Source: Bacteroidota bacterium
Lineage (GTDB): Bacteria > Bacteroidota > Bacteroidia > Chitinophagales > Chitinophagaceae
Reading direction: 5' to 3'
DNA length: 41,756 nt
NCBI GenBank assembly: GCA_003175695.1
Contig: PSRA01000070.1
Location: 1-41,756, forward strand
Part shown: positions 13,388 to 41,752 of the stretch, piece after piece
Layout: each line of letters opens with the position of its first letter
Position numbering within the stretch: position 1 is the stretch's first letter
Position numbers and translations under genes: made by a program
Notes under the pieces: model-generated
Databases searched by the model: none
What the model saw: the letters and a program-made list of their open reading frames with translations, nothing else
Told to the model about the DNA's origin: nothing

Positions 13388-13479
13388 TTGCGAAAGGAGA
13401 TGGAAGGTCATGGCATCATAAAAAATTCACCAGGATCCGGAATCATGGCAAACTTTTATATCGTGCAATGAAAAAACAA

Positions 13480-18237: not shown

Positions 18238-19881
18238 TCAGCTTTCATCTTTGCGCGAATTATTTGCCAACCTGTAAGTCAATCCCATCAGCATTATAAA
18301 TACGCAAATCCAGGCAAAACTGTCTCCAATCCTGGAATACACGGTATTTTCATGCTTTGACTGAATGTCAGCAAACCAAAGTTTTTCCCCCGGGAGATAA
18401 TAATCAAATGATTTCACGATTCTTCCTCGGGAATCTGACAAGATTGAAAGTCCGCTTGAGGCCTGCCTCACTACAGCCGTACCGTTTTCAATGCCTCTAA
18501 AAACGGCCATATAGCTATGGAAGGGAGAAATTGAATACCAATCACCAGACGGAAGAAACAAGAAATCAGCTTTCTTGTTTCCCAACTGTCTCATTTGAAT
18601 GGGAAAATCGGCGTCATAACAGATAGATACAGCAATCCTGCCATAAGGAGTAATGATCACTGGAATGACACCATCACCTGGCTCAGTGGCTTCTGCCATC
18701 GGAACGGGATTATTCTTATGAAAAATATTCATTATTTCTCCCAGGGGGCTTATAAACACAGTTTCGTTTTCAAGGAATTTAGTTGTGGCAGTAATTTTTC
18801 CCGGGTGAATTGCCGCGATAGTCATTACCAGGTAAACCTTATTTTTTTTTGAAAATTTTAGTCCTCTTTCAATCAATTGTTCTTCATCATTCTTGAAGAC
18901 CAAGGCATTGGCTTCGGACCAAAGAATAAATCTGGCGCCATTATCGGCCGCCTTTTTACTTAAAGCAAATAAGCTATCATTCGCTAATTTCATGGCAGCA
19001 TAGGCATATTTGAATTTTGCGCTGTCTGGGGTTTCGATAAAAGGCAATTCTGCTTTTTGTATTTCCCGGACCTTGGAAGACGTGATTGACCAGGTTGGGT
19101 CGATAGAAATTTCCCTGCCGCAATAATCCTTATATAAATTCTCGAGAAATCCGGTGAGCGGAACCGACAAACCCGCTACTCTAACCTGAGCGGACGATTT
19201 CATGGCGTTGCTATTTGATCGAATAAAGCCAAAAAGTATCACGGTTAGAAAAACGGAAGAATAGATTACAATGCCTCTCTTTGCGCGGCGTGGTTCGCTA
19301 TTTCTCTGTATCGCCCACACCAGGACTGAACCAAACCAGTAAATAATGAAACTGATTCCCCACAAACCTGTAATGGAGGCCAGTTGAGTTATCCAATTAA
19401 AAGCAACTTGGGAATTAGCAACGGAAAACCAAATACTTCCTCCCAATGCGGCTGGAATAAATTCCACGCTAACAGATGCAGCAGGAAAGTATAAGGTGCT
19501 AAGAAAACGATCAGATTTTCTTGTGATCCATCTATCGGAGAGGTAAATAAGCCATGACTGGATGGTTTGAATCAAACCAACGACTATTATACCTGGTAAT
19601 GGAAAGGGAACCACATCTTTGAATGCAATAATTGAACGACATAAATAAACCAGGAAGAACCACAAAGTTTTGCGTTTTATCCTGGTCATCCTGAAATAAC
19701 ACAAAAAAAACAAGGGGCCTATCCAGGCAAATAAGCCCATATGCCATTTTGCAGAAGAAAGGACGGTTGCGATCCCGCCAATTATCAAAACGGAAATTGA
19801 AAAGATGATACTGTCTGACAGGTTGCGACAAAATTCTATACTACGGGATAACCTAGGTTCTCCAAATTTTAAATTTTTCAT
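18238..19881 (-). CDS. lnt: Apolipoprotein N-acyltransferase-like membrane nitrilase
   Basis: Predicted to add the third acyl chain to the N-terminal Cys of lipoproteins at the inner membrane. The first 230 residues contain several membrane helices, followed by a CN-hydrolase domain and a last helix (FAWICVFIMLMGLTY). Counting from the start used here, the catalytic triad is Glu 323 (LWSEANAL), Lys 389 (FHKNNPVPMAE) and Cys 421 (SICYDADFP). I start at 19881 (MKNLKF) rather than the ATG at 19920, because a large inverted repeat and a -7-like element occupy 19889-19919. The ICYDADFP context is closer to soluble nitrilases than to classical Lnt, so a different acyltransferase or amidase role remains possible. 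It lies behind the AraC-type regulator gene. Confidence 0.8.
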   Translation of the reverse strand: MKNLKFGEPRLSRSIEFCRNLSDSIIFSISVLIIGGIATVLSSAKWHMGLFAWIGPLFFLCYFRMTRIKRKTLWFFLVYLCRSIIAFKDVVPFPLPGIIVVGLIQTIQSWLIYLSDRWITRKSDRFLSTLYFPAASVSVEFIPAALGGSIWFSVANSQVAFNWITQLASITGLWGISFIIYWFGSVLVWAIQRNSEPRRAKRGIVIYSSVFLTVILFGFIRSNSNAMKSSAQVRVAGLSVPLTGFLENLYKDYCGREISIDPTWSITSSKVREIQKAELPFIETPDSAKFKYAYAAMKLANDSLFALSKKAADNGARFILWSEANALVFKNDEEQLIERGLKFSKKNKVYLVMTIAAIHPGKITATTKFLENETVFISPLGEIMNIFHKNNPVPMAEATEPGDGVIPVIITPYGRIAVSICYDADFPIQMRQLGNKKADFLFLPSGDWYSISPFHSYMAVFRGIENGTAVVRQASSGLSILSDSRGRIVKSFDYYLPGEKLWFADIQSKHENTVYSRIGDSFAWICVFIMLMGLTYRLANNSRKDES

Positions 19882-19888
19882 GACTTGA

Positions 19889-19919
19889 TGTTTTGGAACA
19901 AATATGCAGTTCCAAAACA
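19889..19919. promoter_or_regulatory. 11-bp perfect inverted repeat at the lnt promoter
   Basis: TGTTTTGGAAC (19889-19899) and GTTCCAAAACA (19909-19919) are exact reverse complements with a 9-base spacer. The spacer and inner arm ends contain CATATTTG on the minus strand, one base off the -7 consensus. Repressor-type operators often sit in such a position; alternatively it forms an RNA hairpin in transcripts from upstream. The binding protein is unknown. Confidence 0.6.
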
Positions 19920-19997
19920 CCCTTTGTCGACCGACTTCGCGACCTAGGACGTTTTTATTTGGTTCGAATTCAGGATGGAGGAAAGTCGAACGGTTTA

Positions 19998-23050: not shown

Positions 23051-26000
23051 TTAGGCGACATCCTTTCCGTGGCAATGTTTATACTTTTTGCCACTACCAC
23101 AAGGACAAGGGTCGTTACGGCCAACTTTTGGGCCCACTTTTATTGGCTCCTGTTTGACAGGTTCAGTAGGTTCGTAGTAATCTTTGCCCTCGTCAATAAT
23201 GTTACCGTTAGGTCCGCCTGCAGCTACGAGTTCATCTTTACGGACCTTCATTTTGCTCATGTCAGTCTTTTGCTCTCTGCCTTCCCGAATCGGCGCATTT
23301 TGCTCTATCGGAATTGAACAGTGGCAAAGGAAACTTACAATATCCTTATTTGTTTCGCTATCCATCCTGCGAAACAGTTCAAAAGCCTCCATTTTGTAAA
23401 TGACAAGTGGATCTTTTTGTTCCAGGTAGGCGGTCTGAACACTTTGTTTCAGATCGTCCATGCCACGCAAATGCTCTTTCCACGCATCATCGATGATGGC
23501 CAGCGTGATCTGCCTTTCAACCGCATTCATTAACTCCCTTCCCTGCGTGTCAATTGTTTTTTGCAAATTGGCCAACACATTGATTGCTTTCTTGCCATCT
23601 GAAAAAGGAACCACTACATTTTCGACATTTCTTCCCTGGGTTAACAGAATATTCTTAAATACGGGAACTGCGGTCTTGCGGAGTTCATCCATCTTTCTTT
23701 CATAATTCTGTGTAGCTTCTGTATACAATTTATCGGCGAGCTGCGCGGGATCACCTTTCAGCAATTCCTCTTTGTCGATGGATGTATCTATTCCGAAATT
23801 GACAATACTGGCTAATTTAAAACCTTCGAAGTCATCTAACTCCTTAAAGGAATCGACCAGGCTTTCTGCAACTATATAGAATGCGTTATCCAGGTCGAGG
23901 GCCAATCTTTCACCAAACAGGGCATGGTTACGTTTCTTATAAACAACATTACGTTGTTTGTTCATAACGTCATCATATTCCAACAAACGTTTTCTGATCC
24001 CGAAATTATTTTCTTCAACTTTTTTCTGTGCTCTTTCGATGCTCTTGGTTACCATGCTATGCTGGATAACTTCCCCTTCCTTATAACCCATCTTATCCAT
24101 GAGCGAAGCAATTCTTTCGCTGCCGAACATACGCATCAAATCGTCCTCCAGCGAGGAGTAAAATTGGGTAGTACCAGGGTCACCTTGGCGACCTGCTCGA
24201 CCTCTTAACTGCCTGTCCACTCTTCTGCTTTCATGTCTTTCCGTGCCGATAATCGCCAAGCCCCCTGCTTCCTTAACACCGGCACCTAACTTAATATCTG
24301 TACCACGGCCAGCCATATTGGTAGCGATCGTCACCGCACCCGAAAGCCCTGCTTCGGCCACAACCTGTGCTTCGCGGGCGTGTTGTTTGGCGTTTAAAAC
24401 GTTATGTGGAATTTTCTTAACGTTCAGCATTTTGCTGAGTAATTCGCTCACTTCGACAGAAGTTGTTCCGACAAGTGATGGTCTTCCTTCTCCCCTCAGC
24501 TTTTCAATTTCATCTATTACAGCCTTATACTTTTCTCTCTTCGTCTTGTAGACCAGGTCCTGGTGATCTTTTCTTATAACGGGCACATTGGTAGGAATAC
24601 TAACTACATCCAGTTTATAAATATCCCATAACTCAGCGGCTTCTGTTTCCGCAGTTCCGGTCATACCGGCGAGTTTGTGATACATCCTGAAATAATTTTG
24701 GAGCGTGATCGTAGCATAGGTCTGCGTGGCAGCTTCAATCTTCACATTTTCCTTCGCTTCAATTGCCTGGTGCAGCCCATCGCTGTATCGCCGTCCGTCG
24801 AGTATACGGCCAGTTTGCTCATCCACAATTTTTACCTGGCCATCCAACACCACGTATTCTACATCCTTATCAAACAAGGTATATGCTTTCAGCAATTGCT
24901 GAACCGTGTGGATGCGATCGGCCTTCACCGCATAGTCATTCAACAATTCTTCTTTGCTGGTCAGTTTTTCTTCCGGACTCATTTCGCTCTTTTCAATATC
25001 TGCCAGCTTAATTCCGATGTCAGGCAGGATAAAGAATTCCGGGTCTTCACCATCGCGGGTAATCATTTGAATTCCTTTGTCTGTCAGGTCGACGGAATTA
25101 TTTTTTTCATCAATGTTAAAATAAAGTTCAGCATCTACCTTCGGCATTTCTTTCTGCTGGTCTGCGAGATAATAATTTTCGGCCTTCTGCAATTTTACTT
25201 TAATGCCAGGTTCGCTGAGGTATTTAATAAGTGGACCGTATTTGGGAAGACCGCGGTAGGCGCGCATGAGTCCAAGCGTCCCATCTTTCGGATCATCGTT
25301 TCCATCACCAATTTTTCTTTTTGATTCATTCAGGTATTGGTTAACCACTTTTTTCTGAGTTTCAACCAATCTTTCCACTCTGGATTTTAAGATGTGATAC
25401 TGCTGGTCGTCGCCTTTTGGAACCGGACCGGATATGATAAGAGGAGTCCTGGCATCATCAATCAACACACTATCCACTTCGTCCACCATCGCGTAATGAT
25501 GTTTGCGTTGAACCATTTCTTCGGGTGAATGCACCATGTTATCGCGCAGGTAGTCGAAGCCGAATTCATTGTTCGTGCCATAAGTTATATCGGCATGATA
25601 AGCTTTGCGCCTGGCTTCACTATTGGGCTCATGTTTGTCTATACAATCAACCGTAATACCCAGCCACTCGTAAATCGGTCCATTCCATTCCGAGTCGCGA
25701 CGCGCGAGGTAGTCATTCACTGTTACAATATGAACCCCTTCTTCCGCCAGCGCATTCAAGTATGCGGGCAAGGTTGACACCAACGTTTTACCTTCGCCGG
25801 TTGCCATCTCTGCGATTTTGCCGTCGTGAAGTACAACACCACCAATGAGCTGAACATCGTAGTGGACCATGTTCCAGACTATCTGTCCACCGGCTGCCAT
25901 CCAGGTGTTCTTGTAAATAGATTTATCCCCATCGATGACTATATTGCTTTTCCTGACACTGAGATCCCGATCCAGCTGCGTAGCCGTGGAAACGAGTTCG

Positions 26001-26380
26001 GCATTTTCTTTAAACCTTCTTGAAGTCTCCTTCACAACAGCAAATGCCTCCGGCAGCAATTCTTTTAAAATCTCTTCAATTTTCTTGTCTCTGTCTTTCC
26101 TCAACTCATCAATCTGGTTGTACAATGCATCTTTACCAACGATATCACTGAATGGAAGTTCTTCTGCCTTTTTATTGAGTGAGGAAATCTCTGTATCGAT
26201 TTCGGAAAGATGTTCCTTGATCCGCTGCTTAAATTCAACGGTTTTGCCTCTGAGTTGGTCGTTCGTTAAGTCTTGATATGATTGGAAATGTTGTTTGATC
26301 TCTTCAACCAGGGGAAGTATGATCTTTATATCCTTTTCTGATTTGTTACCGCCAAAAATTTTGGAAAAAAATCCTAACAT
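23051..26380 (-). CDS. secA: Protein translocase motor ATPase SecA
   Basis: Drives preproteins through SecYEG at the inner membrane. Walker A is ATGEGKT (residues 193-199), the DEAD-like region is [16 protein letters not shown], and the C-terminal motor half has [13 protein letters not shown] and [14 protein letters not shown]. The C-terminus has the SEC-C zinc motif [14 protein letters not shown] that binds SecB or ribosomes. At 1109 residues it is longer than the 900-residue enterobacterial protein, as expected in Bacteroidota; the extra length includes an insertion around residues 340-480 ([17 protein letters not shown] onward). It is a single gene with its own -7 element about 93 bases upstream. 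Confidence 0.97.
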
Positions 26381-26480: not shown

Positions 26481-26576
26481 TGAAAAAGGTGCTGCAATTA
26501 GTAAGCCGCCCTGCGGCAACGAACAATTCATAATAAATGCCACTATTTCGTATTTTGTTCTAATTATCGATTGCTT

Positions 26577-28202
26577 ATGAATCAATTACGCTGGCAGGAT
26601 TACCTTGTGTTTCTCGTGTATTTTATCCTGATTTGTTCCTATGGCTACTACATCTACCACAAAAAGAAGGCAGCTCAAACCGATTCAAAAGACTTTTTCC
26701 TTGCAGAAGGTGCATTAACATGGTGGGCAATCGGTGCTTCCATCATAGCTTCAAATATATCGGCAGAACATTTCATTGGCATGTCCGGATCTGCTTTTGC
26801 TCTTGGGCTGGCCATTTCGACCTATGAATGGATGGCTGCAGCCACCTTGATTATTGTTGCGATTTTTATTATTCCCATTTACTTAAAGAACAAGATCTAT
26901 ACTATGCCGCAATTCCTGTCGGTCAGGTATAGCCAGCTCGTTAGCACCATCATGGCGATCTTCTGGTTACTTGTATATGTATTCGTCAATCTTACTTCGA
27001 TTATTTACCTGGGTGCTGTTGCTATCAACCAGGTATCGGGAATCGGATTCAATTGGTGTATTGCCGGTCTTTCAATATTTGCGATAACCGTCACTTTGGG
27101 TGGCATGAAAGTAATTGGCTATACAGATGTTTTCCAGGTACTGGTCCTAATTATGGGGGGATTGGTTACAACCTATCTTGCATTGACATTGATTTCGGAA
27201 CATTTCGGTTATGGGAAGAATATCTGGAAAGCGATCGGCCTCGTGAGGTCAAATGCACCTTCTCATTTTCATATGATATTTGACAAATCAAATCCTTACT
27301 ACAAAGATTTGCCTGGATTGTCTGTTTTGATCGGAGGCATGTGGATTAATAATCTAAATTATTTTGGAGCCAATCAATATATAACTCAACGTGCATTGGG
27401 AGCCGATCTCAAGACGGCACGCAACGGTTTGTTATTTGCCGCTTTTTTGAAATTAATCATTCCGGTCATCGCCGTTTTACCCGGCATTACGGCATTTGTT
27501 TTGTTTAAGCAGGGAATTTTTCATTCTGAAATGCTGGACGCAGCTGGCAACGTTAAGCCAGATCATGCATACCCGACGCTGTTACATTTGTTGCCAGCGG
27601 GTTTGAAGGGACTTGCATTTGCAGCATTGACCGCGGCCATTGTCGCTTCTCTCGCTGGTAAAGCAAATAGTATTGCGACGATTTTCTCATTGGATATTTA
27701 CCATAAATTTTTCAATCGATCTGCGAATGAAAAACAGTTGGTAAGAACGGGTCGGTGGGCTGTAGTATTTGCCATGTTCCTGGCAAGTATGGTGGCACCC
27801 GCTTTACAATCTTTGGACCAGGCTTATCAATTCATCCAGGAATATGTTGGATTTATTTCACCGGGTGTGCTGGCCATTTTTTTATTAGGATTTTATTGGA
27901 AAAGAACCAATGCAACTGCTGCACTGATGGCGGCAATTTTGACGATCCCGCTTTCAGCGATCTTAAAGTTTTTGCCCAGATGGACAAATGGTGCATTTCC
28001 GGATTATCCGTTTTTGGACAGAATGACGATTGTCTTTGTGATCATAATAGCATTAATGATCATCGTTAGTTTGAGAGAAGCTGAAAAACCTGGTCACGAA
28101 ATTGTCGTGGATAAGAGCATGTTTCGGGTAGCACCGACGTTTGTCGTCGGATCTCTTATCATTTTTGGGGTATTAACCGCGTTGTACACCGTATTTTGGT
28201 GA
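26577..28202 (+). CDS. Sodium:solute symporter (SSS/SGLT family)
   Basis: A 541-residue inner-membrane protein with about 13-14 helices that imports a sugar, polyol or similar solute with sodium. SSS signatures are SNISAEHFIGMSGSAF near residue 60, MPQFLSVRYS near residue 110, LGGMKVIGYTDVFQ near residue 175, and NLNYFGANQYITQRALGA near residue 265, as in the vSGLT-like branch. ATG at 26577 is chosen over the TTG two codons earlier. The myo-inositol oxygenase gene follows 83 bases downstream on the same strand, which makes myo-inositol a reasonable substrate (mammalian SMIT transporters belong to the same family), but this is inference. Confidence 0.88.
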   Translation: MNQLRWQDYLVFLVYFILICSYGYYIYHKKKAAQTDSKDFFLAEGALTWWAIGASIIASNISAEHFIGMSGSAFALGLAISTYEWMAAATLIIVAIFIIPIYLKNKIYTMPQFLSVRYSQLVSTIMAIFWLLVYVFVNLTSIIYLGAVAINQVSGIGFNWCIAGLSIFAITVTLGGMKVIGYTDVFQVLVLIMGGLVTTYLALTLISEHFGYGKNIWKAIGLVRSNAPSHFHMIFDKSNPYYKDLPGLSVLIGGMWINNLNYFGANQYITQRALGADLKTARNGLLFAAFLKLIIPVIAVLPGITAFVLFKQGIFHSEMLDAAGNVKPDHAYPTLLHLLPAGLKGLAFAALTAAIVASLAGKANSIATIFSLDIYHKFFNRSANEKQLVRTGRWAVVFAMFLASMVAPALQSLDQAYQFIQEYVGFISPGVLAIFLLGFYWKRTNATAALMAAILTIPLSAILKFLPRWTNGAFPDYPFLDRMTIVFVIIIALMIIVSLREAEKPGHEIVVDKSMFRVAPTFVVGSLIIFGVLTALYTVFW

Positions 28203-28225
28203 GAGAAGGTTGCGAAGGCCTTCTC
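28203..28225 (+). terminator. Hairpin between the symporter and inositol oxygenase genes
   Basis: GAGAAGG pairs with CCTTCTC directly after the symporter stop. There is no T-run after it, so it may stabilise the upstream transcript or reduce, rather than stop, read-through. Confidence 0.4.
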
Positions 28226-28285
28226 CCCAACCGGGACAATCCAAAAAAAATTTGCTATCTTACAAATAGAATAAATCACTTGCAC

Positions 28286-29167
28286 ATGAATAATGGTCAG
28301 GAATTTTCAAAAGAGGAAATGAATCCCCTGGCGAATATTGAACAATGGGATGAGGATGTCTTGGATCGGTATCCCGAACCAGATCAACCATTTAAAGCAA
28401 AGGAGGAGTTTAGAAATTATGACAATCCGGTACGAGATACAGTCCGTGAGTTTTACCGGTTGAATCATAAATACCAGACTTATGATTTTGCAAAAGAAAA
28501 ACGAAATGAGTTTTTGCAATTCAACCGCAAAGAAATGCCGGTATGGGGTGCTATGGAATTTCTAAACACATTGGTAGACGATTCTGATCCTGATATTGCA
28601 CTTGATCAGTTACAGCATTTGCTGCAGACGGCAGAAGCAATTCGGGCAGATGGGCATCCGGATTGGTTTGTGTTGACAGGTTTCATCCATGACATGGGAA
28701 AAGTTCTTTGTTTATTCGGAGAGCCTCAATGGGCTGTCGTCGGTGATACATTTCCTGTCGGTTGTAAGTTTTCGGACAAAATTGTTTATCCTGAATTCTT
28801 TGAAAATAATCCTGATTCGAAAGATGAAAGGTACAATACAAAATATGGAATTTACAGTGAAGGTTGCGGATTGAACGAGGTGATGATGTCATGGGGTCAT
28901 GATGAATATTTGTATCAGATAATGAAAAATTATCTTCCGGAAGAAGCATTGTATATGATACGGTATCATTCATTTTACCCGCAACATCGCGAACATGCGT
29001 ATGACCACTTAATGAATGGTCATGACCGTGAGATGTTCGAGTGGGTAAAGAAATTCAATCCCTATGACTTATACTCGAAGAGTCCCAAGCCCCCGGTATT
29101 AGAAGAGTTGAAGCCGTATTATGAGGAGCTCATAACCAAATATCTTCCGAAGACTGTCAGATTATAA
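28286..29167 (+). CDS. Myo-inositol oxygenase (MIOX)
   Basis: Di-iron enzyme that uses oxygen to open the myo-inositol ring, giving D-glucuronate. I start at ATG 28286, giving 293 residues; the open frame extends upstream but has no family match. All six iron ligands known from the mammalian enzyme are present: His 111 (QLQHLLQTAE), His 135 and Asp 136 (IHDMGKV), His 205 (WGHDEYL), His 228 (RYHSFYP) and Asp 261 (FNPYDLYSK). LFGEPQWAVVGDTFPVGC is nearly identical to the animal protein. The enzyme is well known in eukaryotes and sporadic in bacteria. The preceding symporter and the convergent MFS transporter suggest inositol uptake and uronate traffic. No uronate isomerase is in the window. It ends in a strong terminator. 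Confidence 0.95.
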   Translation: MNNGQEFSKEEMNPLANIEQWDEDVLDRYPEPDQPFKAKEEFRNYDNPVRDTVREFYRLNHKYQTYDFAKEKRNEFLQFNRKEMPVWGAMEFLNTLVDDSDPDIALDQLQHLLQTAEAIRADGHPDWFVLTGFIHDMGKVLCLFGEPQWAVVGDTFPVGCKFSDKIVYPEFFENNPDSKDERYNTKYGIYSEGCGLNEVMMSWGHDEYLYQIMKNYLPEEALYMIRYHSFYPQHREHAYDHLMNGHDREMFEWVKKFNPYDLYSKSPKPPVLEELKPYYEELITKYLPKTVRL

Positions 29168-31540: not shown

Positions 31541-32224
31541 TTATTGAAGTTGGAAAATTGAGCCCTCGACAATTGCAAATACATTCTCACCTTTTAAAGG
31601 CTCAATCAAGACCACTCCTGTAAACCGGCTGAAAGCAGGTAATACTGCATAATTTTTTCCAAAATAAAAACAGGGAAAACACAGCGTTTGTTTCCCGGCG
31701 CCATCAATTCGGATTCCAGGATGAATGTGACCACTGAAAGAGTAATTTGACTTGCCGGAGCCGTTTCTTCCTTGCAGATTACTTTTCATAGTTAAAGCGA
31801 TGTCGTGGACGAAATGGAAATTTCTCACTTGCAGGTCTTCATTGCTCAAAACTATATCAGCAGCCGAGTACCAATCATCATGAAGTATATCGTGATTACC
31901 TTTTATGAGCTGAATAGTAAGCTTTGGAAAGTTTTTGCGCCACTTATTGAATAATTCCAACTCCTTATTGTGGCGGCTATGGAAAAGATCGCCAACAATA
32001 ATGAGTTGCTCAGGCTGAAAATATTGAATTTGGTTGATCAGCCTTTGGAGATCTTCCTTATAAACTGTTTGAGGAACGGCAATTCCTGACTTTCTAAAAT
32101 GGCCGGTTTTGCCAAAGTGCAAATCAGAAACAATTAATGATTTTGCTTCTTCCCAAAAAATGCACCTGTCTGCAGACAGCCACAATTGTTGTTCTCTGAT
32201 ACGGTATGGAATGGGTGGGCGCAT
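31541..32224 (-). CDS. pdeM: Ligase-associated DNA damage response endonuclease PdeM
   Basis: A 227-residue calcineurin-like metallophosphoesterase, in the family that accompanies the ATP-dependent ligase/helicase/exonuclease repair cluster. The metal-binding motifs are complete: VSDLHFGKTGHFRKSG (Asp 34, His 36), IVGDLFHSRHN, IKGNHDILHDD, and SGHIHPGIR. It is probably a nuclease acting on damaged DNA ends. It is the last gene of the cluster, 51 bases behind the helicase. A full -7 match just ahead of its start may give it a separate transcript. Confidence 0.92.
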   Translation of the reverse strand: MRPPIPYRIREQQLWLSADRCIFWEEAKSLIVSDLHFGKTGHFRKSGIAVPQTVYKEDLQRLINQIQYFQPEQLIIVGDLFHSRHNKELELFNKWRKNFPKLTIQLIKGNHDILHDDWYSAADIVLSNEDLQVRNFHFVHDIALTMKSNLQGRNGSGKSNYSFSGHIHPGIRIDGAGKQTLCFPCFYFGKNYAVLPAFSRFTGVVLIEPLKGENVFAIVEGSIFQLQ

Positions 32225-32275: not shown

Positions 32276-34819
32276 TTATCTTGACAATTGTAATTGCATT
32301 CTCTTTACACGGTCTTCTAATTTTTCAGATGAAAGCTCCTCACGCATGCTGTCGACTTTGATTGGGAAACAGAAAGGCGTCAATTTATCCAGAAATCGAA
32401 TAACAATCTTGCTTCTCTGAATTCTATCCAACATGCCGCGGAGTCGCGCTTCTTCCATCTGTTGATCCATCACTTCGTTGTAGGCCTGTCGTAAAAGTAA
32501 ATTGTGCGGATCATATTCACTAAAAACATTAAAAAGCAGCGATGCCGAAGATTGCAGATGCCGGGCCTTTTTGTATTCGCCTGGATAACCCTGAAATATC
32601 AGGCCACCAATGACAGCTATGTCGCGAAATTTTCTTCTTGCCATTTCAGCGCTATTTACACTTCGTTGGATGTCCTGCGTTAAATTATCTTGAGAAAATA
32701 ATTCATATACATTTGAATCATCAACAGGAATGGGCTGATCGCTCAATAATTCAAATCCATAATCGTTCATGGCAAAGGAAAAGGTAATGGGCCTGACCAG
32801 GCTGATTCTAAATGCGAGCAAGGCTGCCATCGCTTCATGAACCAATCTTCCTTCAAAGGGATACACAAATAAATGAAAGCCGTCTTTGGTTTCAATCTGC
32901 TCAATCAGAAGTTCATTTTCATTTGGAATATGGGACAGTTGATGTTGCAGAAGAAAAAGGGGCTGCAATTTGCGCAACTCAATATCGGGAACATCCATAG
33001 GAGCTATGCCCTGTTCCAATGTCAAAGGCGCTTCATTGAATTTCTTTCTCAGCATTAATCCTAGATTCGAGGAAAGCGGCATCCTTCCGCCATTCCAACT
33101 GGGAACTTTCGATTTTTTTGAATTTGATTTTCTAACGATGGCAGTCATGTCTTTTATCATGACAAACTCGAGATTGCGTCCTGCCAAAGTAAAAACATCA
33201 CCTGGCTGCAATCGCGAGACAAAATATTCTTCAATTACCCCTATATAGCCGCCGCTCATGAATTTGACCTTCATCATCGCATCACTGACAATTGTCCCTA
33301 TATGTAAGCGATGACGCATGGCAATCCGGCGACTATTGATCACATATAAACCGTTAATTATTTCCACCTTTTTGAATTCATCATACTGTTGCAGTGCGGC
33401 TCCTCCTGCCGAAATAAAATACAAGATTTCATTCCACTCATCTTTGGTCATTTCCCTGTAACAATGAGTAGATTTGACTTCTTCAAATATTTCATCAGGG
33501 AAGAACCCGCCACCAATTGCTCGGGTGGACAGATACTGAATCAGCACATCGAAACACAGCACCATCGGTTCGCGACTTTCTATAAAATTCAATTTCATTG
33601 CAGTCTTCAATGCGGCCGCTTCAACCAATTCCAGAGAATGTGTTGGCAAAAAATAAATCTTGCTGACCTGCCCGGGCTGATGGCCACTTCTGCCTGCCCT
33701 TTGAAGAAATCTTGCCACCCCTTTGGGAGATCCAACTTGTATAACGGTTTCAACTGGCCGAAAATCGACGCCCAGGTCGAGGCTGGCCGTGCAGACAACA
33801 GCTTTGAGTTTCCCACTATGCAATGCTTCTTCCACCCATATTCGCAATTCGGCGTCCACTGAGCCGTGGTGAAGTGCAATGAGACCAGCCAGATCGGGAC
33901 AAACATTCAATATTTCCTGATACCATCGCTCGCTCATTCCTCTGGTATTGATAAATATCAGGGTTGTCCGGCTTTGCTCGATAATTGGAATCACCTTATC
34001 GATTAACTTAATCCCCAGGTGACCCGCCCAGGGGTATTTTTCAATTTCGTCCGGAAATACGGATTCAATTTCAATCGGCTTATCAATTTTTGCTTTCACA
34101 ATTTTGCCGAATCCTGAAGAGTTGCTTAAATCCGTTACCAATGGTGAAAGTAGCGTCTCCATTGCCTGGTCAAGATTTCCAATCGTTGCTGAAATGCCCC
34201 AAATAGAAGCTATCTTATTTCCAGCTGGTCCTTGCAACCGAATAATCCTTGATATAGCAAGTTCTACCTGTACGCCGCGTTTGCTTCCCAACAATTCGTG
34301 CCATTCATCGACAGCAATCCATCTTAAAGATTGGAAAATTTCATTGTTATTTTTCTGCGCAAGAAGTAAGTGTAGACTCTCGGGAGTTATTATCAACACC
34401 TCAGGCATTTGCCTGGATTGCTTTTGTCTTTCGCTCAACTCTGTATCACCGTTGCGGATCCCAACTTTCCAACCCATATGTAGTTCATCGATGACTTCTT
34501 CCATTGCCCGGCCGATGTCTTTAGCCAATGCCCGCAGTGGGGTGATCCACAGCAGTTGAAGATTGTTCCTGGTTTTTTTTCTGAAATTATCTTCGTGGCG
34601 ATTAATAAAGTCGATCAATGTTCCCAAAAAAACAGAAAATGTTTTTCCGCAACCGGTGGGAGCATTGACCAGTCCTGAATTTCCATTTAAAATGTGTTCC
34701 CAGGTTTCAACTTGAAATTTAAAAGGCCTTAGCTTTTTTCCATTCAGCCAATCATAAATAACCCGGTATCCAAATGTATCTTCTACCTTCATTCCGGCTT
34801 GGTCTTGTAATGTTGGCAT
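32276..34819 (-). CDS. Ligase-associated DNA damage response DEXH-box helicase (Lhr-like)
   Basis: An 847-residue superfamily 2 helicase related to Lhr. Motif I is APTGCGKT (residues 53-60), motif II is AVDEWHELLGSKRG, motif III is GISATIGNLDQA and motif VI is RFLQRAGRSGHQPG. The C-terminal half has the winged-helix/Lhr-specific region, with CFDVLIQYLSTRAIGGGF and the beta-rich DUF4145-like part before the LDRIQRSKIVIRFLDK tail. In this cluster it is thought to unwind DNA at damage ahead of nuclease and ligase steps. It overlaps no gene; 18 bases separate it from the upstream cytochrome gene. Confidence 0.93.
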   Translation of the reverse strand: MPTLQDQAGMKVEDTFGYRVIYDWLNGKKLRPFKFQVETWEHILNGNSGLVNAPTGCGKTFSVFLGTLIDFINRHEDNFRKKTRNNLQLLWITPLRALAKDIGRAMEEVIDELHMGWKVGIRNGDTELSERQKQSRQMPEVLIITPESLHLLLAQKNNNEIFQSLRWIAVDEWHELLGSKRGVQVELAISRIIRLQGPAGNKIASIWGISATIGNLDQAMETLLSPLVTDLSNSSGFGKIVKAKIDKPIEIESVFPDEIEKYPWAGHLGIKLIDKVIPIIEQSRTTLIFINTRGMSERWYQEILNVCPDLAGLIALHHGSVDAELRIWVEEALHSGKLKAVVCTASLDLGVDFRPVETVIQVGSPKGVARFLQRAGRSGHQPGQVSKIYFLPTHSLELVEAAALKTAMKLNFIESREPMVLCFDVLIQYLSTRAIGGGFFPDEIFEEVKSTHCYREMTKDEWNEILYFISAGGAALQQYDEFKKVEIINGLYVINSRRIAMRHRLHIGTIVSDAMMKVKFMSGGYIGVIEEYFVSRLQPGDVFTLAGRNLEFVMIKDMTAIVRKSNSKKSKVPSWNGGRMPLSSNLGLMLRKKFNEAPLTLEQGIAPMDVPDIELRKLQPLFLLQHQLSHIPNENELLIEQIETKDGFHLFVYPFEGRLVHEAMAALLAFRISLVRPITFSFAMNDYGFELLSDQPIPVDDSNVYELFSQDNLTQDIQRSVNSAEMARRKFRDIAVIGGLIFQGYPGEYKKARHLQSSASLLFNVFSEYDPHNLLLRQAYNEVMDQQMEEARLRGMLDRIQRSKIVIRFLDKLTPFCFPIKVDSMREELSSEKLEDRVKRMQLQLSR

Positions 34820-34837
34820 ATCTTAGCAATCCCCTCT

Positions 34838-36217
34838 TTACAAAGTTTTCAAATATTCGATGATAGCCTTTCTTTCTTTTTCAGAAAGTTTGTCTCCGAA
34901 ATTGTGGCCATAGTTTCCATAGCCAGGCAGGACTGTGTTATATACGTTCGTTCCGTCGGGTGAATCATGTGTACTGTATACCCATCCTATCTTATTGTAA
35001 TCATATTGTGGGTTGTCAAAATCCCTGGACCAATATTTTGGCCTGGCCTTGCTATTTAATACACCTTCCAATGTCGGCACCGAGCCATTGTGCAGGTAGG
35101 GGGCTGTCACCCAAATGCCGTCCAGGGGAGGAGCTATGTATCCATTGAAGGGCTCCAGCCTTGCAGGGTGATCTCCTTGTGCAAACCAACTGTTGTTGAA
35201 CCAATCCACGAATTGAGGACTCTGGTAATTACTCGTAAATAACATGGAATCGGTCCTGATAGTGGATTCGGGAATAAGCAAATTCGGGTAGTCGTTGCTG
35301 TTACCATGACATTTGGAGCAATTCTTAACATATAAGATGCCGCCTTGCTGCGACAACGCCTTATTGATTGGCTTTGGATATTTCGGTGGCCTCAATGAAT
35401 AAATGTAGGCCAGCACATCGTTGAAGTGGCCATCGACTTCCCGCGATTCTGACGTATCGTTCACTGTCAGCAAATTGGAGGCCATCAAAAACCTGCTGAA
35501 GTCACCCCTTCCAAAACCAGTATAGAACATGGCATTCTTTTTTTTCAAAAGCCACCAGGCTGGTACGTCTGTGGGGATAACCTGGTCTGGAATTTCCAGC
35601 ATGGGAGTTTCACTCCAACGGAAGGTATTTCTATCGCGATGACTTACTAAAAGCGCCGCTAAGCGATCAGCAGCGTTTACGCCGCGAACTTTTGTTTGCA
35701 ACTGACCACCGATCGTCTTAACGACCTTCAAAAAAGGCTCGGCTGCTTCGAAATTTTTCGGATCCAGGTTACGTAGAACCTTCTCTGCAGACGCAGCCAC
35801 TTTCGGATCTAACCTTTGGTTGTTGGAAAAATCGATGGTGGTATTACCCAGGCCCATGATCAATTTATTTTCAAAAACCTGGGCATGACATTGTAAACAA
35901 TTTGGTGCAACAACTATTTCGCCATTGGGTGCTTTGACTGCTGTATATTCATGGCTAACACTTTTGTTGAGACCTTCTCTTTGAAGATAATTTACCGAAC
36001 TCTTTCCAAAACCTAATTTGAAATAGTTATAAGGAATGCCGCTCTTCAAATAGTCACCCGTTATTAAATAAGTATAGCCCTTTTTGCTGTCACCATCTCT
36101 CTGCCTGCTTGCGGGCACGAAAACAGCATCATCGCCTCCTTCGAAAAAGATCGATGTAAATCCGAAACAGATAACTGAAATGCCTGCCGTCACGAGGACT
36201 TTTTTCATACGGGCCAA
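34838..36217 (-). CDS. Di-haem cytochrome c, RoxA/cytochrome c peroxidase-like, inside the repair cluster
   Basis: A 459-residue exported or membrane-anchored cytochrome with an N-terminal hydrophobic segment (KVLVTAGISVICFGFTSIFF). It has two haem c sites, CLQCH (107-111) and CSKCH (300-304). The segment VTAPYLHNGSVPTLEGVL (about 371-387) is characteristic of the RoxA/MauG-like di-haem group, in which a second motif region precedes the substrate-facing haem. Family members include rubber oxygenase and related peroxidase-like proteins; the substrate here is unknown. The gene is co-directional, 75 bases after the ligase stop and 18 bases before the helicase start, and nothing in the cytosolic repair pathway obviously needs a periplasmic cytochrome. 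Alternative starts at ATG 36208 are possible. Confidence 0.85.
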   Translation of the reverse strand: MARMKKVLVTAGISVICFGFTSIFFEGGDDAVFVPASRQRDGDSKKGYTYLITGDYLKSGIPYNYFKLGFGKSSVNYLQREGLNKSVSHEYTAVKAPNGEIVVAPNCLQCHAQVFENKLIMGLGNTTIDFSNNQRLDPKVAASAEKVLRNLDPKNFEAAEPFLKVVKTIGGQLQTKVRGVNAADRLAALLVSHRDRNTFRWSETPMLEIPDQVIPTDVPAWWLLKKKNAMFYTGFGRGDFSRFLMASNLLTVNDTSESREVDGHFNDVLAYIYSLRPPKYPKPINKALSQQGGILYVKNCSKCHGNSNDYPNLLIPESTIRTDSMLFTSNYQSPQFVDWFNNSWFAQGDHPARLEPFNGYIAPPLDGIWVTAPYLHNGSVPTLEGVLNSKARPKYWSRDFDNPQYDYNKIGWVYSTHDSPDGTNVYNTVLPGYGNYGHNFGDKLSEKERKAIIEYLKTL

Positions 36218-36248
36218 TTAGAATTTAAAATTAACATGGACTGGAAAA

Positions 36249-36270
36249 CTCTCGCTTCTTTTGAGAAGAG
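36249..36270 (-). terminator. Hairpin between ligase and cytochrome genes
   Basis: On the minus strand CTTCT pairs with AGAAG (with a flanking pair set across a two-base bulge), followed by TTTTCC. It lies just after the ligase stop codon. Weak; it may partly end the ligase transcript before the cytochrome gene. Confidence 0.35.
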
Positions 36271-36292
36271 GAATTTATTTTTTTGTGAAAAT

Positions 36293-37909
36293 TTACTTCC
36301 CATATAATTCAAGCATTTTCTTCAAATCTTCGAGTGTGTTGATCTCCTGCGGTTTCTTATCCTTTCTCCAGCGATTAATGCGGGGAAAGCGAAGCGCGAT
36401 GCCTGATTTATGACGACTTGATGCAGCAATTCCTTCAAATGCTATTTCAAAAACCAGTTCAGGTTTAACAGTTCGGACCGGACCAAATTTCTCCAGGGAA
36501 TTTCGCTTGACAAATTGGTCAACTTCGGAGAACTCCTTATCTGTAAGTCCTGAATATGCTTTGGTAAAGGTTACCAATTTGTCACCTTCCTTAACTGCAA
36601 AAGTGTAATCAGTATAAAGATTGCTTCTACGGCCATGGCCCTTTTGAGCATACACCATAACAGCATCAATAACGAGAGGATCGACTTTCCATTTCCACCA
36701 ATCGCCTCTCTTTCTACCCACCTGGTAGGCAGAATTTCTTCTTTTAAGCATGATGCCTTCACTACCAATTTCCCTTGAATGGCTACGAATCTTGCTCAAC
36801 TCTTCCCACGTATTGAATTCTACTAATGGGGACAATCGCAAGAATGGCTGATTGATTGAACGAATAATCTTTTCAAGCAAGGTTCTCCTTTCTTCCAATG
36901 ATTTTTCCCTCATGTCGGATCCTTCATATTCCAGCATATCGTAAGCAATGAAACCGACGGGTGCCTCCATAAGTTGTTTCTTAGAAATATTTTTTCTGCC
37001 AATGCGCGTTTGCAAAATCCCAAAAGGCAATGGCATGAAATCTATCTGATCAGATTGGGAATTCGATAAACAGATTATTTCACCATCCATTACTGTACCA
37101 TCATCCAGGAAATTCCGCAAAGGCGCGTATTCGGGAAACTTTTCTGTCACTAATTCTTCTCCCCTACTCCAAACAAAAAGTTGTTGGCTTCTTTTTATTA
37201 CCTGTCCACGAATTCCATCCCATTTCCATTCAGCTATCCATTCGTTAGGTTGGCCGAGTTCGTCCAAATTTTCTTCCAGCGCATATGCCAGGTAAAATGG
37301 AAATGGCTTAGAGAAATCCTGGCTTATACCTTGTTCACTCAGCAAATCCGAAAAAGAAATAGTAACAGGATCCCAGTTACCGCTAATCCTGTGAGCAATG
37401 ACTGAAGGATTCAGACTGATCGTTTTTGCCAACGCATTTACCATCAATTTTTGCGACACGCCAATTCTAAACCCACCAGTTATCAATTTGTTGAAAACAA
37501 ATCTTTCGCCGTAGGACATAGTGGACCAGGCATCGACGATAAATTTCTTTTTGACTGATTCATCCTCTTTTTCAATCTTAATCAGGATTTCGAGATAATA
37601 ATGTAAAGGAAATGACTTTCCTTGCGACTCATTTTCCAGTAATAGCAGCGCGATCGTTTCAGCCAAATCGCCCACCGTGTGATAACTTTCTTCGAACAAC
37701 CAGGAGGGAAGGCCGGTCAATTCTACGCACCATTCCTGCAGTTTGGAAGCACTGACAGCTCGCCTGGGCCTTCGCCCGCTAAAAATCGCAATTACCCAAA
37801 CTTTGTCTTTGCTGTCTGCATTGGCAAAATAGTCTTTTAGTGCGTCCAACTTGTCGTTGGTCTTTGTTGACGTACCCAGCCTAGATACCAGTTCTGCAAA
37901 TAATTTCAT
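36293..37909 (-). CDS. ATP-dependent DNA ligase (repair-cluster type)
   Basis: A 538-residue ATP-dependent DNA ligase that seals nicks during repair. The N-terminal DNA-binding domain covers residues 1-210 and includes KLITGGFRIGVSQKLMVNAL. The nucleotidyltransferase domain has Lys 229 in EWKWDGIRG (motif I), DGEII (motif III), SEGIMLKRRNSAYQVG (motif IV) and WWKWK (motif V). The OB-fold tail ends LRFPRINRWRKDKKPQEINTLEDL. Gene order exonuclease-ligase with a four-base gap is characteristic of the ligase-associated DNA-damage-response set. This is an auxiliary enzyme; the replicative NAD-dependent ligase is elsewhere. Confidence 0.94.
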   Translation of the reverse strand: MKLFAELVSRLGTSTKTNDKLDALKDYFANADSKDKVWVIAIFSGRRPRRAVSASKLQEWCVELTGLPSWLFEESYHTVGDLAETIALLLLENESQGKSFPLHYYLEILIKIEKEDESVKKKFIVDAWSTMSYGERFVFNKLITGGFRIGVSQKLMVNALAKTISLNPSVIAHRISGNWDPVTISFSDLLSEQGISQDFSKPFPFYLAYALEENLDELGQPNEWIAEWKWDGIRGQVIKRSQQLFVWSRGEELVTEKFPEYAPLRNFLDDGTVMDGEIICLSNSQSDQIDFMPLPFGILQTRIGRKNISKKQLMEAPVGFIAYDMLEYEGSDMREKSLEERRTLLEKIIRSINQPFLRLSPLVEFNTWEELSKIRSHSREIGSEGIMLKRRNSAYQVGRKRGDWWKWKVDPLVIDAVMVYAQKGHGRRSNLYTDYTFAVKEGDKLVTFTKAYSGLTDKEFSEVDQFVKRNSLEKFGPVRTVKPELVFEIAFEGIAASSRHKSGIALRFPRINRWRKDKKPQEINTLEDLKKMLELYGK

Positions 37910-37913
37910 AAAA

Positions 37914-38936
37914 TCAATTCACTTCGCTCCCTAATTGCGACTCTGATTGTTCTTCCAGTTCATCACCAAATGCGGTTTTTACCTCAGCCGCCTCAATTCC
38001 TATCTCATTTAAATATCGGCTGAAAGAAGATTGAAATCCGTGTGTAACAAAGACTTTAGCAGCCCCTGTAGATTTCACAACATCAAGCAATCCATTCCAG
38101 TCTGCATGATCACTTAACGCAAATCCCGCATCTGCATTCCTGCGCCTGACATTACCTCTGACCTGCATCCACCCACTACATATTCCCAAAGAATAAGGCT
38201 CGAATCGGTTGACCCAGGATGAAGCTTCCGCACCAGGAGGCGCAATTATGACACCACTTTTAATGGTTCCTCTTTGAAAATCGGAAGTAACTCTTTTTAC
38301 CGCGGGCAATTGAACACCTGCCATCCGAAGAGCCTCTTGCGTATTCCAAATTGCACCGTGAACATATATATCGGATGATACTGGATTCAAAAAAGGCAAT
38401 ATTCTCTGAGTCTTGCCCAAACTGTAAGCAATGAGAACACTATTCCTTCCAGCCTCCATGTTTTTAAGCACCCAATTTTGCATGTTGAACTGGATCTCCT
38501 TTTGTTTTTTCCAGCGATAGATGGGCAGTCCAAAAGTTGACTCAGAAATAAAGACATCACATTTCACAATTTCTAATTCGCCACTGATGCCATCATTTTC
38601 AGTTTTATAATCACCACTCACTACCCATACTTCTCCATTGTATTCAACTCTAACCTGTGAAGATCCAATGATATGACCCGCGGGATGAAGTGAAATCTTT
38701 ACACCATTTTTGTGGATGACTTCTCCCCATTCCATAGTTTGATAATTGTTATTACCGAGTCTCAATTGCAGGAGATATTTGGTCAGCGGATGGCTGATGT
38801 AGAGTGAGCTTCCCGGCCTGGCATGATCGCTGTGTGCATGAGTTATGACCGCTTGATTGACCGGCTGCCATGGATCGATGTAGAAATCACCAGTTGGACA
38901 ATAAATCCCCTTTTCGGTAAAGCTCAACAATTTCAT
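37914..38936 (-). CDS. Ligase-associated DNA damage response exonuclease (metallo-beta-lactamase fold)
   Basis: A 340-residue beta-CASP-type nuclease related to SNM1/Artemis and mRNA-cleavage factors. The zinc-binding HAHSDH motif is at residues 33-38, followed by LHPAGHIIGSSQVRV with the next His, VVSGDYKTENDG with the Asp ligand, and the late ALSDHADWNGLL with the beta-CASP His. It is expected to process DNA ends ahead of ligation. First gene of the recognised repair set, four bases before the ligase and 50 bases after the periplasmic binding-fold gene, so it may be part of a longer transcript. Confidence 0.93.
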   Translation of the reverse strand: MKLLSFTEKGIYCPTGDFYIDPWQPVNQAVITHAHSDHARPGSSLYISHPLTKYLLQLRLGNNNYQTMEWGEVIHKNGVKISLHPAGHIIGSSQVRVEYNGEVWVVSGDYKTENDGISGELEIVKCDVFISESTFGLPIYRWKKQKEIQFNMQNWVLKNMEAGRNSVLIAYSLGKTQRILPFLNPVSSDIYVHGAIWNTQEALRMAGVQLPAVKRVTSDFQRGTIKSGVIIAPPGAEASSWVNRFEPYSLGICSGWMQVRGNVRRRNADAGFALSDHADWNGLLDVVKSTGAAKVFVTHGFQSSFSRYLNEIGIEAAEVKTAFGDELEEQSESQLGSEVN

Positions 38937-38986: not shown

Positions 38987-40186
38987 TTAGTATACAGCCA
39001 CAATATTGCCATTGACTTTCTTGAGAAAATACAATTTCTTGTTTTCAAGGTAGTCAAGCGTTGGATTTTGTCTATTGAGGAACACTGGCTGAATGTCGAA
39101 ATCATTAAACACTTTGAATTTCCGCTCTCCAATACTTCCACTGAGATTAGTGCCAAAGAGAGCCAGCAATTGAGAGAAACGGAACATCACTTCATACCCC
39201 CGAAATACCATATCGCTGGGCCTGGAATAGAATTTATTTTTGAAATACTGCTGAATAGAAATGACGAGGCTGTCATTCGGATTGATATAGAATGGCGTGG
39301 TAAAATATATCTCCTGGTCAGTAAATTCAGGCCTGGAAAAATCTATTGCATCCCAGGTTGGCATCCCTATTATTTTAGAGATATAGGTCTTATTTACGGA
39401 AGCAATGGTAGTACAAACAGTTTTGCTGAAATTATCATCGAGGATACCAACAATGCAAAGATTTTTCCTTGAACTGTCGAGACTGGATAAAATTTGGTTC
39501 TGGGCCGATGGCTGATCCAGAGTTACATATTTCAATCTTAGAGGTACCGAAGCTGTATTCCTTTCTACATCCATGAAATAGTTCTTAACCCTGTCCTCTC
39601 CTTTTTTTGTGAAGAATAAGAGATTATAAGTTGGATAATTCCTTTGAACGAATTTATAGATGGCTTCACAATGAGTTCTCAGTGTCGAATTCAAAATAAC
39701 TAATTGATGGTTGTTGGTAATTCCGCCATCATTCGGATAGTTTGCATTGATAAAAGGAATGTTTTTGCGCAGTGCAAGGTTTGCCAGGTCTCTTAATTCA
39801 GCTGCGTTGACATATCCTACCATTAATTGCGTTTGTTGAAAGTCGGGGCTTTCTCCTATCTGGCTGATCGTTTGATTTCCCGAATGTGTATCGTATACTT
39901 CTACATCTAAATTCAAATTTTTAGATTGAAGAGAATCTATGGCCAGTTGTGCTCCCTCGTAGAATTCCAGACCGGGATTGAAGAATTTGGGAAAATTTTT
40001 ATCATACCTGTAGTTGTAGCCCGCGTCAAATGCAGAGTCAAGGTAAAGGGGCAGAAACAAAGCTATGCGATATCGTTTGGTTGAATCCTGAGCCCTCTGA
40101 ATGGAATCTACTTGTGATTTGGCAGATTGGAAAAAATTAGTAAGGATGATGGATAATGCGAATAAATATCTGGAAATGATTTTCAT
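38987..40186 (-). CDS. Periplasmic binding-fold protein (type 1, amino-acid/branched-chain-like)
   Basis: A 399-residue exported protein; signal peptide MKIISRYLFALSIILTNFFQSAKSQ. The rest has the type-1 periplasmic binding (Leu/Ile/Val-binding or receptor ligand-binding) fold, recognisable by LFLPLYLDSAF, the FYEGAQLAIDSL segment, DVEVYDTHSGNQ and LMVGYVNAAELRDLAN. No permease or ATPase genes lie nearby, so it is probably not part of a classical ABC importer here; Bacteroidota encode many such single copies. It lies 33 bases after guaA on the same strand. Function unknown; it might sense a ligand or bind peptidoglycan-related molecules. Confidence 0.85.
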   Translation of the reverse strand: MKIISRYLFALSIILTNFFQSAKSQVDSIQRAQDSTKRYRIALFLPLYLDSAFDAGYNYRYDKNFPKFFNPGLEFYEGAQLAIDSLQSKNLNLDVEVYDTHSGNQTISQIGESPDFQQTQLMVGYVNAAELRDLANLALRKNIPFINANYPNDGGITNNHQLVILNSTLRTHCEAIYKFVQRNYPTYNLLFFTKKGEDRVKNYFMDVERNTASVPLRLKYVTLDQPSAQNQILSSLDSSRKNLCIVGILDDNFSKTVCTTIASVNKTYISKIIGMPTWDAIDFSRPEFTDQEIYFTTPFYINPNDSLVISIQQYFKNKFYSRPSDMVFRGYEVMFRFSQLLALFGTNLSGSIGERKFKVFNDFDIQPVFLNRQNPTLDYLENKKLYFLKKVNGNIVAVY

Positions 40187-40219: not shown

Positions 40220-41752
40220 TCACTCCCATTCAATCGTTGCAGGCGGCTTACTGCTGATGTCATATACAACCCGGTTAATTCCTTTTACATTATTAATTAT
40301 TTCGTTCGAGATCTGGGCCAGAAACTCATAAGGCAAATGCGCCCAATCAGCGGTCATTCCATCAACGGAAGTAACGGCCCTTAGAGCAACAGTGTATTCA
40401 TATGTTCTTTCATCTCCCATCACACCCACACTTTTCACAGGCAACAAAATAGTACCTGCCTGCCAAACCGAATGATATAAATTACTTTCTTTTAAACCTT
40501 TGACGTAAATAGAATCAGCTTCCTGTAATAGCTTCACTTTTTCTCGTGTTACCTCTCCTAGGATCCTGATAGCAAGTCCGGGACCGGGGAAAGGATGTCT
40601 CTGCAGCATTTCAACGGGTATACCTAACTCGGCTCCGACTCTTCTTACTTCATCTTTAAACAAAAATCGTAGGGGCTCGACCAGGTCCAGGTGCATTTTC
40701 TTGGGAAGCCCTCCCACGTTGTGATGCGACTTAATTGTTTGTGAAGGGCCGTGAACCGACATACTTTCGATAACATCGGGATAAATCGTTCCCTGCCCCA
40801 ACAATTCAATGTTTTTTATTTTCTCCGCCTGGTCTCTGAATACTTTAATGAAAAGCTTTCCGATCGTCTTTCTCTTGTCTTCCGGATCAGTTTTCCCTTT
40901 CAATTTTGTGTAAAAAAGCTTCTTTGCGTCAACTCCTTTAACATTCAAGCCCAGCGTCTTGTAAGTATCCAACACTTCATGGAATTCATTTTTTCTCAGA
41001 ACGCCGTTATCGACAAAAATTCCGTGAAGCCGATTACCAATAGCTTTACTAATTAGCGTCGCGGCAACAGTAGAATCTACTCCTCCGCTCAATGCCATGA
41101 CCACCTTTCGCTTTCCAATTTGCTGGCTCAGCTGCTGAACTGAATCATTTATAAAATGGGCGGCCGTCCAATCCTGTTTACAACCGCAGACATCAACAAG
41201 GAAATTCCTCAGTATCTTTTTCCCTTCTGTCGAATGATAGACCTCAGGATGGAATTGAAGACAATACAGTGGCAAACTATTGCCGTTCATCTTAAAAGCT
41301 GCGAAAGGAATATTTTCCGTTGTCGCTAAAACTTCGAATACTTCCGGCAGATCCAAAATGGTGTCAGCGTGGCTCATCCAGACCTGGGATTTTTCGGAAA
41401 CCCCCTCCAGAATGACATCATCCTTTTGCTTTTGCAGGAGAGCACGACCATATTCTCTTTTCTTGCTATTGGCAACATGACCGCCGTATTGCATAGCTGT
41501 CAGTTGCGCCCCATAGCAAATGCCCAAAACGGGCAGATGCTGATGCAATAGCTGCACATCCACCATGGGCGCCTTCTTGTCATTCACCGAAAATGGAGAG
41601 CCAGAAAGTATAATGCCTTTGAGTGAAGGATCAATCTCGATTTTTCTATTGTAGGGAACAATCTCGCAGTATACGTTGGCTTCGCGCACGGCCCGGGCAA
41701 TCAATTGAGTATATTGTGAGCCGAAATCGAGAATAAGGATCTTTTCCGTCAT
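40220..41752 (-). CDS. guaA: GMP synthase (glutamine-hydrolysing)
   Basis: Converts XMP to GMP with glutamine and ATP, the last step of guanine nucleotide synthesis. The class I glutaminase half has catalytic Cys 79 (LGICYGAQ) and the His/Glu pair in [11 protein letters not shown]. The synthetase half carries the PP-loop SGGVDST near residue 225 and the dimerisation end with [15 protein letters not shown] and [10 protein letters not shown]. Full length (510 aa); its start codon lies four bases from the window edge, so its promoter is outside. It leads a same-strand series that continues into the binding-fold and repair genes. Confidence 0.97.

Follow-up and report, generated by a model that had tools for sequence, protein, structure and literature searches.

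A RoxA-like di-haem cytochrome gene inside the ligase-associated DNA repair cluster of Chitinophagaceae is probably a long-standing neighbour of the repair genes

The closest described genomic setting for the locus studied here is the ligase-associated DNA damage response cluster, represented by the models TIGR04120 to TIGR04123. The Lhr/MPE cluster of Pseudomonas putida is reportedly a described form of it. The window, meaning the whole stretch of 41,756 nucleotides that was analysed (contig PSRA01000070.1 of a Bacteroidota bacterium, Chitinophagaceae), has the same four genes on the same strand, but adds a cytochrome gene between the ligase and the helicase. No description of a cytochrome inside a ligase-associated repair cluster was found among the papers listed in the literature searches, judged by titles and abstract openings; the available part of PMC12654122 concerns a cytochrome P450 in pesticide breakdown.

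Several described di-haem enzymes resemble the cytochrome. The RoxA latex oxygenase of Steroidobacter cummioxidans 35Y (structure 4b2n) shares its predicted fold, its two CxxCH sites, a C-terminal His (His641 in RoxA, His435 in the window protein) and a Phe (Phe301, Phe228). However, RoxA has 662 residues against 456, and its Phe317, Trp302, Ile252 and Gly253 are replaced in the window protein. RoxA is without peroxidase activity according to the part of PMC6797691 that was available. The P. aeruginosa enzymes 10S-DOX and 7,10-DS (PA2077/PA2078, FadCcp; 634 and 624 aa) are RoxA-related di-haem enzymes with polar changes in the distal pocket, and are likened to the window protein by their description in the available part of PMC4496055.

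The features of the locus, in order of position, are as follows.

31541 to 32224, minus strand: PdeM-type endonuclease (TIGR04123, 200.2 bits against a cut-off of 150)
32276 to 34819, minus strand: ligase-associated DEXH helicase of the Lhr type (TIGR04121, 1077.5 bits against a cut-off of 850; Pfam WH_Lhr and DEAD_assoc)
34820 to 34837, minus strand: cytochrome-helicase gap of 18 bases (helicase start at 34819)
34838 to 36208, minus strand: RoxA-like di-haem c-type cytochrome of 456 aa, from ORF, profile and structure searches; N terminus signal-peptide-like by eye, CxxCH at residues 104-108 and 297-301, conserved His373 and His435
36209 to 36292, minus strand: ligase-cytochrome gap of 84 bases, counted from the ATG (the ligase ends at 36293)
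36293 to 37909, minus strand: ATP-dependent DNA ligase of the ligase-associated cluster (TIGR04120, 614.7 bits against a cut-off of 400)
37914 to 38936, minus strand: ligase-associated exonuclease (TIGR04122, 446 bits against a cut-off of 325)
38987 to 40186, minus strand: 399-aa protein, assigned to the syntenic block by gene order; Pfam and NCBIfam searches at E 0.001 gave no matches
40220 to 41752, minus strand: head of the syntenic block in the window, which we take to be the GMP synthase GuaA

All four repair genes named in the original prediction are present and clustered on one strand, and each exceeds its NCBIfam cut-off, which places the locus in the ligase-associated DNA damage response cluster. 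The cytochrome reading frame is real and lies between the ligase and the helicase on the minus strand, as had been proposed. Its likely start is the ATG at 36208, giving 456 aa; the first three residues from this ATG are common to three congeners aligned with the window protein, and position 36217 is a TTG three codons upstream. Of the gaps of 75 and 18 bases first given, 18 is correct, while 75 holds for the TTG start only and becomes 84 from the likelier ATG. The two predicted CxxCH sites are invariant in all 41 sequences of alignment A2, which were chosen from 51 available. The protein is probably exported, judging from its signal-peptide-like N terminus, and a cytochrome c assembly protein (PF01578) is encoded in the source genome, making haem attachment feasible. 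The minus strand of the ligase-cytochrome gap was scanned for terminator-like and promoter-like patterns with no matches, although the promoter result weighs little since these scans yield no more promoter-like sites than shuffled sequence. A match to what we take to be the Bacteroidota promoter pattern occurs at 32262-32229 on the minus strand, in the helicase-PdeM gap; matches in the window occur at the chance rate.

Genomic neighbourhoods were searched across Chitinophagaceae, the check asked for with the original prediction. The cytochrome gene was found in 23 of the 24 genomes of the source genus (partial in G020, in pieces in G001 and G004), with the helicase and/or ligase inside the fetched flanks in all 23. 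In G023, an in-frame TAA splits the gene (locus L058) into ORFs of 385 and 75 aa, representing either a decaying copy or a sequencing error. Across the family, 31 of 117 sampled genomes carry the cytochrome, and in 23 of these, from 19 genera, it lies within 5 kb of the helicase or ligase, a recurrence that exceeds chance. The remaining eight comprise three with the gene on a contig other than that of the helicase, two in which no helicase was found, and three at distances of 7 kb to 2.4 Mb. A recurrent partner was sought beside these eight homologues and three others of the order, and none was seen. The family count fell from 32 to 31 when G081, with two matches below 20 bits, was dropped. 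A second cytochrome match in G124 (37.5 bits) was also dropped, and G111 was kept at 41% identity. Helicase and ligase matches at or below 34% identity (other helicases and ligases, including two divergent copies in G148), a few short matches to other helicases at up to 37% identity and a 43-residue ligase fragment in G126 were left out; the counts do include partial helicases from G071 and G096 and partial ligases from G078 and G105. Besides its standard helicase and ligase, G148 has two extra divergent ligase-helicase pairs on contigs C43 and C30, with 33-34% identity to the window proteins.

This distribution bears on the idea of a lineage-specific insertion, which is supported at the level of the family (19 genera) and not for the source genome alone, as shown by its congeners. 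The source assembly consists of 275 contigs at 78.76% completeness, which could raise suspicion of an insertion peculiar to this genome or of an assembly artefact. The 23 genus genomes together with linkage in 19 genera rule out the former. The latter is ruled out by the single-contig genomes G042 and G122, where the order is ligase, cytochrome, one or two extra ORFs and helicase. This explanation is therefore scarcely credible. In the congener G017 (94% complete), the cytochrome is missing from an otherwise ordered run of GuaA, 399-aa gene, exonuclease, ligase, helicase and PdeM, and the ligase-helicase interval holds only an opposite-strand reading frame.

A longer block emerged from 53 cytochrome loci and 60 helicase regions, some members being missing in each genome: head-GIN protein, GuaA, 399-aa protein, exonuclease, ligase, cytochrome, helicase, PdeM, histone-deacetylase-like protein and HTH/S24 regulator. 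In the window, no histone-deacetylase-like gene adjoins PdeM. The ligase and helicase are adjacent without the cytochrome in 25 regions, and their called ORFs overlap in 15 of these, so the cytochrome interrupts an otherwise tight pair in its carriers. Ten of the 113 loci read have a gene for a second haem protein (Haem_bd, PF14376, one CxxCH), which lies either between the helicase and PdeM or adjacent to PdeM. An example is L059:12538-13017 (G011); it has the same place in G122, G015, G007, G014, G021, G113, G067 and G120, and is beside PdeM in G137.

Trees were built from 97 helicases, only those above 700 aa, and from 51 of 54 cytochrome ORFs, those above 430 aa. On the helicase tree, the state of having the cytochrome by the helicase or ligase takes 11 changes, compared to 31.0 in shuffles. 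The source genus and the groups G040/G139/G122/G067/G108, G146/G047 and G046/G145 are common to both trees. Three sister pairs of the cytochrome tree, G065 with G059 (99), G042 with G082 (97) and G105 with G131 (88), are absent from the helicase tree, indicating that the cytochrome tree is not wholly vertical. The best fit is a single entry followed by mainly vertical inheritance, with repeated losses. Many of the deep branches are weak, so transfer in some cases or more than one entry is possible.

A control pair from the same window, RsmB/F (12185-13411) and SucB (13480-14730), unrelated by their Pfam matches, was compared. With the source genome excluded, RsmB/F and SucB are separated by at most 5 kb in 23 of the 29 carrier genomes and by at most 500 bases in 15 of them. 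The cytochrome and helicase lie within 5 kb in 19 of 28 carrier genomes and within 500 bases in 13 of 28. SucB and the cytochrome are at most 50 kb apart in 14 of 29 carriers, so the wider region is partly syntenic, and with much of it conserved, adjacency alone says little. For the known partners helicase and ligase, the count within 5 kb is 42 of 56 genomes. SecA (23051-26380) lies 5.9 kb from the helicase in the window; the two are no more than 5 kb apart in only 2 of 27 genomes and no more than 10 kb apart in 4 of 27, so pairs differ, and one control pair is thin. A second control gene (18238-19920, apolipoprotein N-acyltransferase-like) had no matches at E 1e-40 in 30 genomes. Conservation of this neighbourhood over 19 genera of one family is thus no proof of shared function, given that two unrelated genes of this window stay together at least as often.

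A rival reading is a shared response to oxidative stress, in which the cytochrome would clear periplasmic peroxide, the repair enzymes would mend the DNA damage that peroxide causes, and the genes would be kept together for joint expression. Where the cytochrome and helicase are direct neighbours (28 loci), they are on the same strand in all 28 and the called gaps are 0-9 bases in nine, so some members of the family are likely to co-transcribe the two genes; a shared transcript is possible where only a few bases separate them. The empty promoter and terminator scan of the window's ligase-cytochrome gap and the PF14376 haem-protein genes by the helicase or PdeM fit as well. So does the position of GuaA: in 15 of 31 carriers it lies no more than 10 kb from the cytochrome, and each of the 15 also has the helicase or ligase near; eight further carriers have the helicase or ligase near the cytochrome without GuaA near. 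No carrier among the 31 has the cytochrome near GuaA and at the same time far from both the helicase and the ligase. A tie to repair could be the cause, yet the cytochrome in any case lies closer to the repair genes than to GuaA.

The shared response is opposed by the control pair and by several further results. First, the cytochrome does not follow the ligase. In the family sample, 17 of the 31 carriers have the ligase, as do 39 of the 86 non-carriers (Fisher p 0.41). In independent pairs on the helicase tree that differ in the cytochrome, the ligase went the same way in 0.6 and the opposite way in 3.9 of 8 on average, which was not significant. In nine of the 22 other genus genomes searched, five of which reach 99% completeness or more, a search at E 1e-40 gave no ligase match; in each of these nine, cytochrome and helicase are still close together. 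Pointing the other way, the helicase is commoner in carriers (29 of 31) than in non-carriers (54 of 86; Fisher p 0.001, uncorrected for relatedness). Second, opposite-strand genes stand between the cytochrome and helicase in seven genomes: G108, G051 and G098, and the congeners G002, G007, G014 and G009. In Hydrotalea flava (L153) and G098 (L069), three opposite-strand genes intervene; in L153, two of the three encode proteins with CxxCH (455 and 494 aa), and the three in G098 are similar in size.

Third, few of the wider relatives read show the linkage. The scan covered the best 80 of at least 490 relatives, with flanks of up to 7 kb on each side, often ended by contig ends. Linkage was counted by tblastn because ORF calling overlooked 8 of the 80 homologues. 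By this count, the helicase or ligase is present in 16 of these best 80 loci of at least 490; the 16 have 53-72% identity and belong to Chitinophagaceae or are labelled only Bacteroidota, Bacteroidetes or Sphingobacteriales. In the other 64 of the best 80 of at least 490, neither gene was found in the stretch read. These 64, from the same best 80 of at least 490, include Saprospiraceae, Flavobacteria, Cytophagales, Verrucomicrobiota, Myxococcota and Gammaproteobacteria, and also Chitinophagaceae records such as Segetibacter aerophilus. One of them, L167, has an exonuclease homologue on the opposite strand about 2.5 kb away. In Segetibacter sp. 3557_3 (L143), two cytochrome ORFs (477 and 456 aa) stand in tandem downstream of the ligase, and the fetched stretch contains no helicase.

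The shared oxidative-stress response is therefore not supported: neither gains nor losses of the cytochrome were seen to go along with those of the ligase, and opposite-strand genes intervene. We regard it as unlikely. It is slightly more doubtful still that an Lhr-type repair cluster gained a co-transcribed periplasmic arm, consisting of a RoxA-fold peroxidase and, in some genera, the PF14376 protein beside PdeM; this arm would remove peroxide outside as the repair enzymes mend DNA inside. A fifth part of the cluster would be expected to show linkage or co-loss that exceeds regional synteny and reaches past one family; neither was seen with one control pair and short flanks in the best 80 of at least 490 relatives. 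A working role of the cytochrome in repair is not supported, and regional synteny explains the linkage well enough.

Hitch-hiking, the third option of the original prediction, is the best supported one, given the unrelated pair, which is linked at least as often, and the 64 unlinked loci among the best 80 of at least 490 relatives. We give a probability of roughly 70% to an insertion that took place long ago and has since been passed on mainly by vertical descent, with repeated losses, which would make the cytochrome a long-standing neighbour and not a part of the repair system. The gene would have been inserted, probably once, beside the helicase in an ancestor within Chitinophagaceae, the site being between the ligase and helicase wherever the ligase is present. 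It would then have been passed on mostly vertically, with many losses, in a chromosome block that rearranges slowly. Where gaps are short, transcription from upstream genes would probably read through the cytochrome, and its product, a putative periplasmic RoxA-type di-haem oxidoreductase, would act outside the cytoplasm, apart from the repair enzymes. The basis for this reading is the gene, its predicted fold, its conserved residues, its spread, its linkage and one control; we infer export, haem loading, chemistry, the single insertion and co-transcription.

The window protein belongs to the Pfam family RoxA-like_Cyt-c (PF21419), with 82.3 bits against a cut-off of 26.7. Its scores for RoxA (112.2 of 1000 bits) and RoxB (118.3 of 900) are below the NCBIfam cut-offs, and its RoxC score is also far below. 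For the NCBIfam model CytoC_perox (NF040606, di-heme-cytochrome C peroxidase), all 41 members of A2 match at E 0.001, and the window protein reaches 125.2 bits, short of the curated cut-off of 150. The description as RoxA- or peroxidase-like is thus sound in its first half, by PF21419 and fold, and only plausible in its second. An AlphaFold2 model (mean pLDDT 86.0, pTM 0.84) was compared with solved structures, and RoxA 4b2n was the only one found by Foldseek at E 0.001 or below (E 2e-17). VIA-align to RoxA gave Z 25.8 over 412 residues with an rmsd of 3.4, ahead of a hydrazine synthase chain (Z 13.6). MauG and the bacterial peroxidases have a related fold with a weaker likeness than RoxA (Z 9.6-12.4), and PF03150, the family of classical cytochrome c peroxidases and MauG, is absent among the three Pfam matches of the window protein at E 0.001. 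As modelled, the cytochrome has the RoxA fold, and this predicted fold is combined with the two CxxCH sites and an equivalent of the C-terminal His641.

Residues were named as in PMC6797691 and PMC4496055, and 48 family proteins were taken from the 51 tree ORFs, with three from other families counted apart. His373 and His435 are His in all 48, and in 80 and 79, respectively, of the best 80 loci of at least 490 relatives. RoxA Phe301 aligns with Phe228, Trp302 with Tyr229, Ala316 with Ala243, Phe317 with Ser244, Ile252 with Asp181 and Gly253 with Arg182. The inter-haem Trp302 is thus replaced by Tyr, as in 46 of the 48 family proteins. In place of the essential distal Phe317, 47 of the 48 have Ser and one has Thr; the 79 loci with a residue listed there, among the best 80 of at least 490, have Ser, Ala, Gly, Thr, Ile or Val.

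These residues speak against a RoxA-like oxygenase that cleaves rubber or isoprenoids and owes its location to chance, which we consider improbable. Such an enzyme would agree with RoxA being the closest solved fold. It would also agree with a CrtC-type lipocalin gene (PF07143) directly upstream on the same strand in 6 of the best 80 loci of at least 490. However, the scores are far below the RoxA and RoxB cut-offs, and changes of F317 drastically reduce or abolish rubber cleavage according to the available part of PMC6797691, so a rubber oxygenase is unlikely with Ser at this position. A rubber oxygenase proper was rejected on these scores and Ser244. A peroxidase or an enzyme acting on lipid peroxides appears likelier, because by sequence alignment to RoxA the distal Phe is Ser and the pocket is more polar. 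At the positions of Ile, Gly and Phe in RoxA, the window protein has Asp181, Arg182 and Ser244, so its substrate would more likely be H2O2, a lipid hydroperoxide or some other unsaturated lipid than rubber. Haem 1 (C104/C107, proximal His108) would be the reactive haem, and haem 2 (C297/C300, His301, with His435 as second axial ligand) would pass electrons, perhaps via Tyr229.

The locus thereby points to a widespread group of RoxA-fold proteins, about 450 residues long, that lack the Phe of the rubber oxygenases and, to our knowledge, have no assigned substrate. CrtC-type lipocalin domains are a carotenoid hydratase family. The six loci with this gene (L194, L196, L205, L216, L217 and L219) are in records named Gammaproteobacteria or Paracoccus; one of the six genes was classified by Pfam and the other five by tblastn to that one. 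This neighbour, in six of the best 80 loci of at least 490, hints at a lipid or isoprenoid substrate in Gammaproteobacteria and Paracoccus. No other recurrent neighbour stood out in these 80 loci, the best of at least 490. Elsewhere in the window, on the plus strand at 26571-29167, a myo-inositol oxygenase gene (PF05153) overlaps a sodium/solute symporter gene, and the two are perhaps a pair for inositol use.
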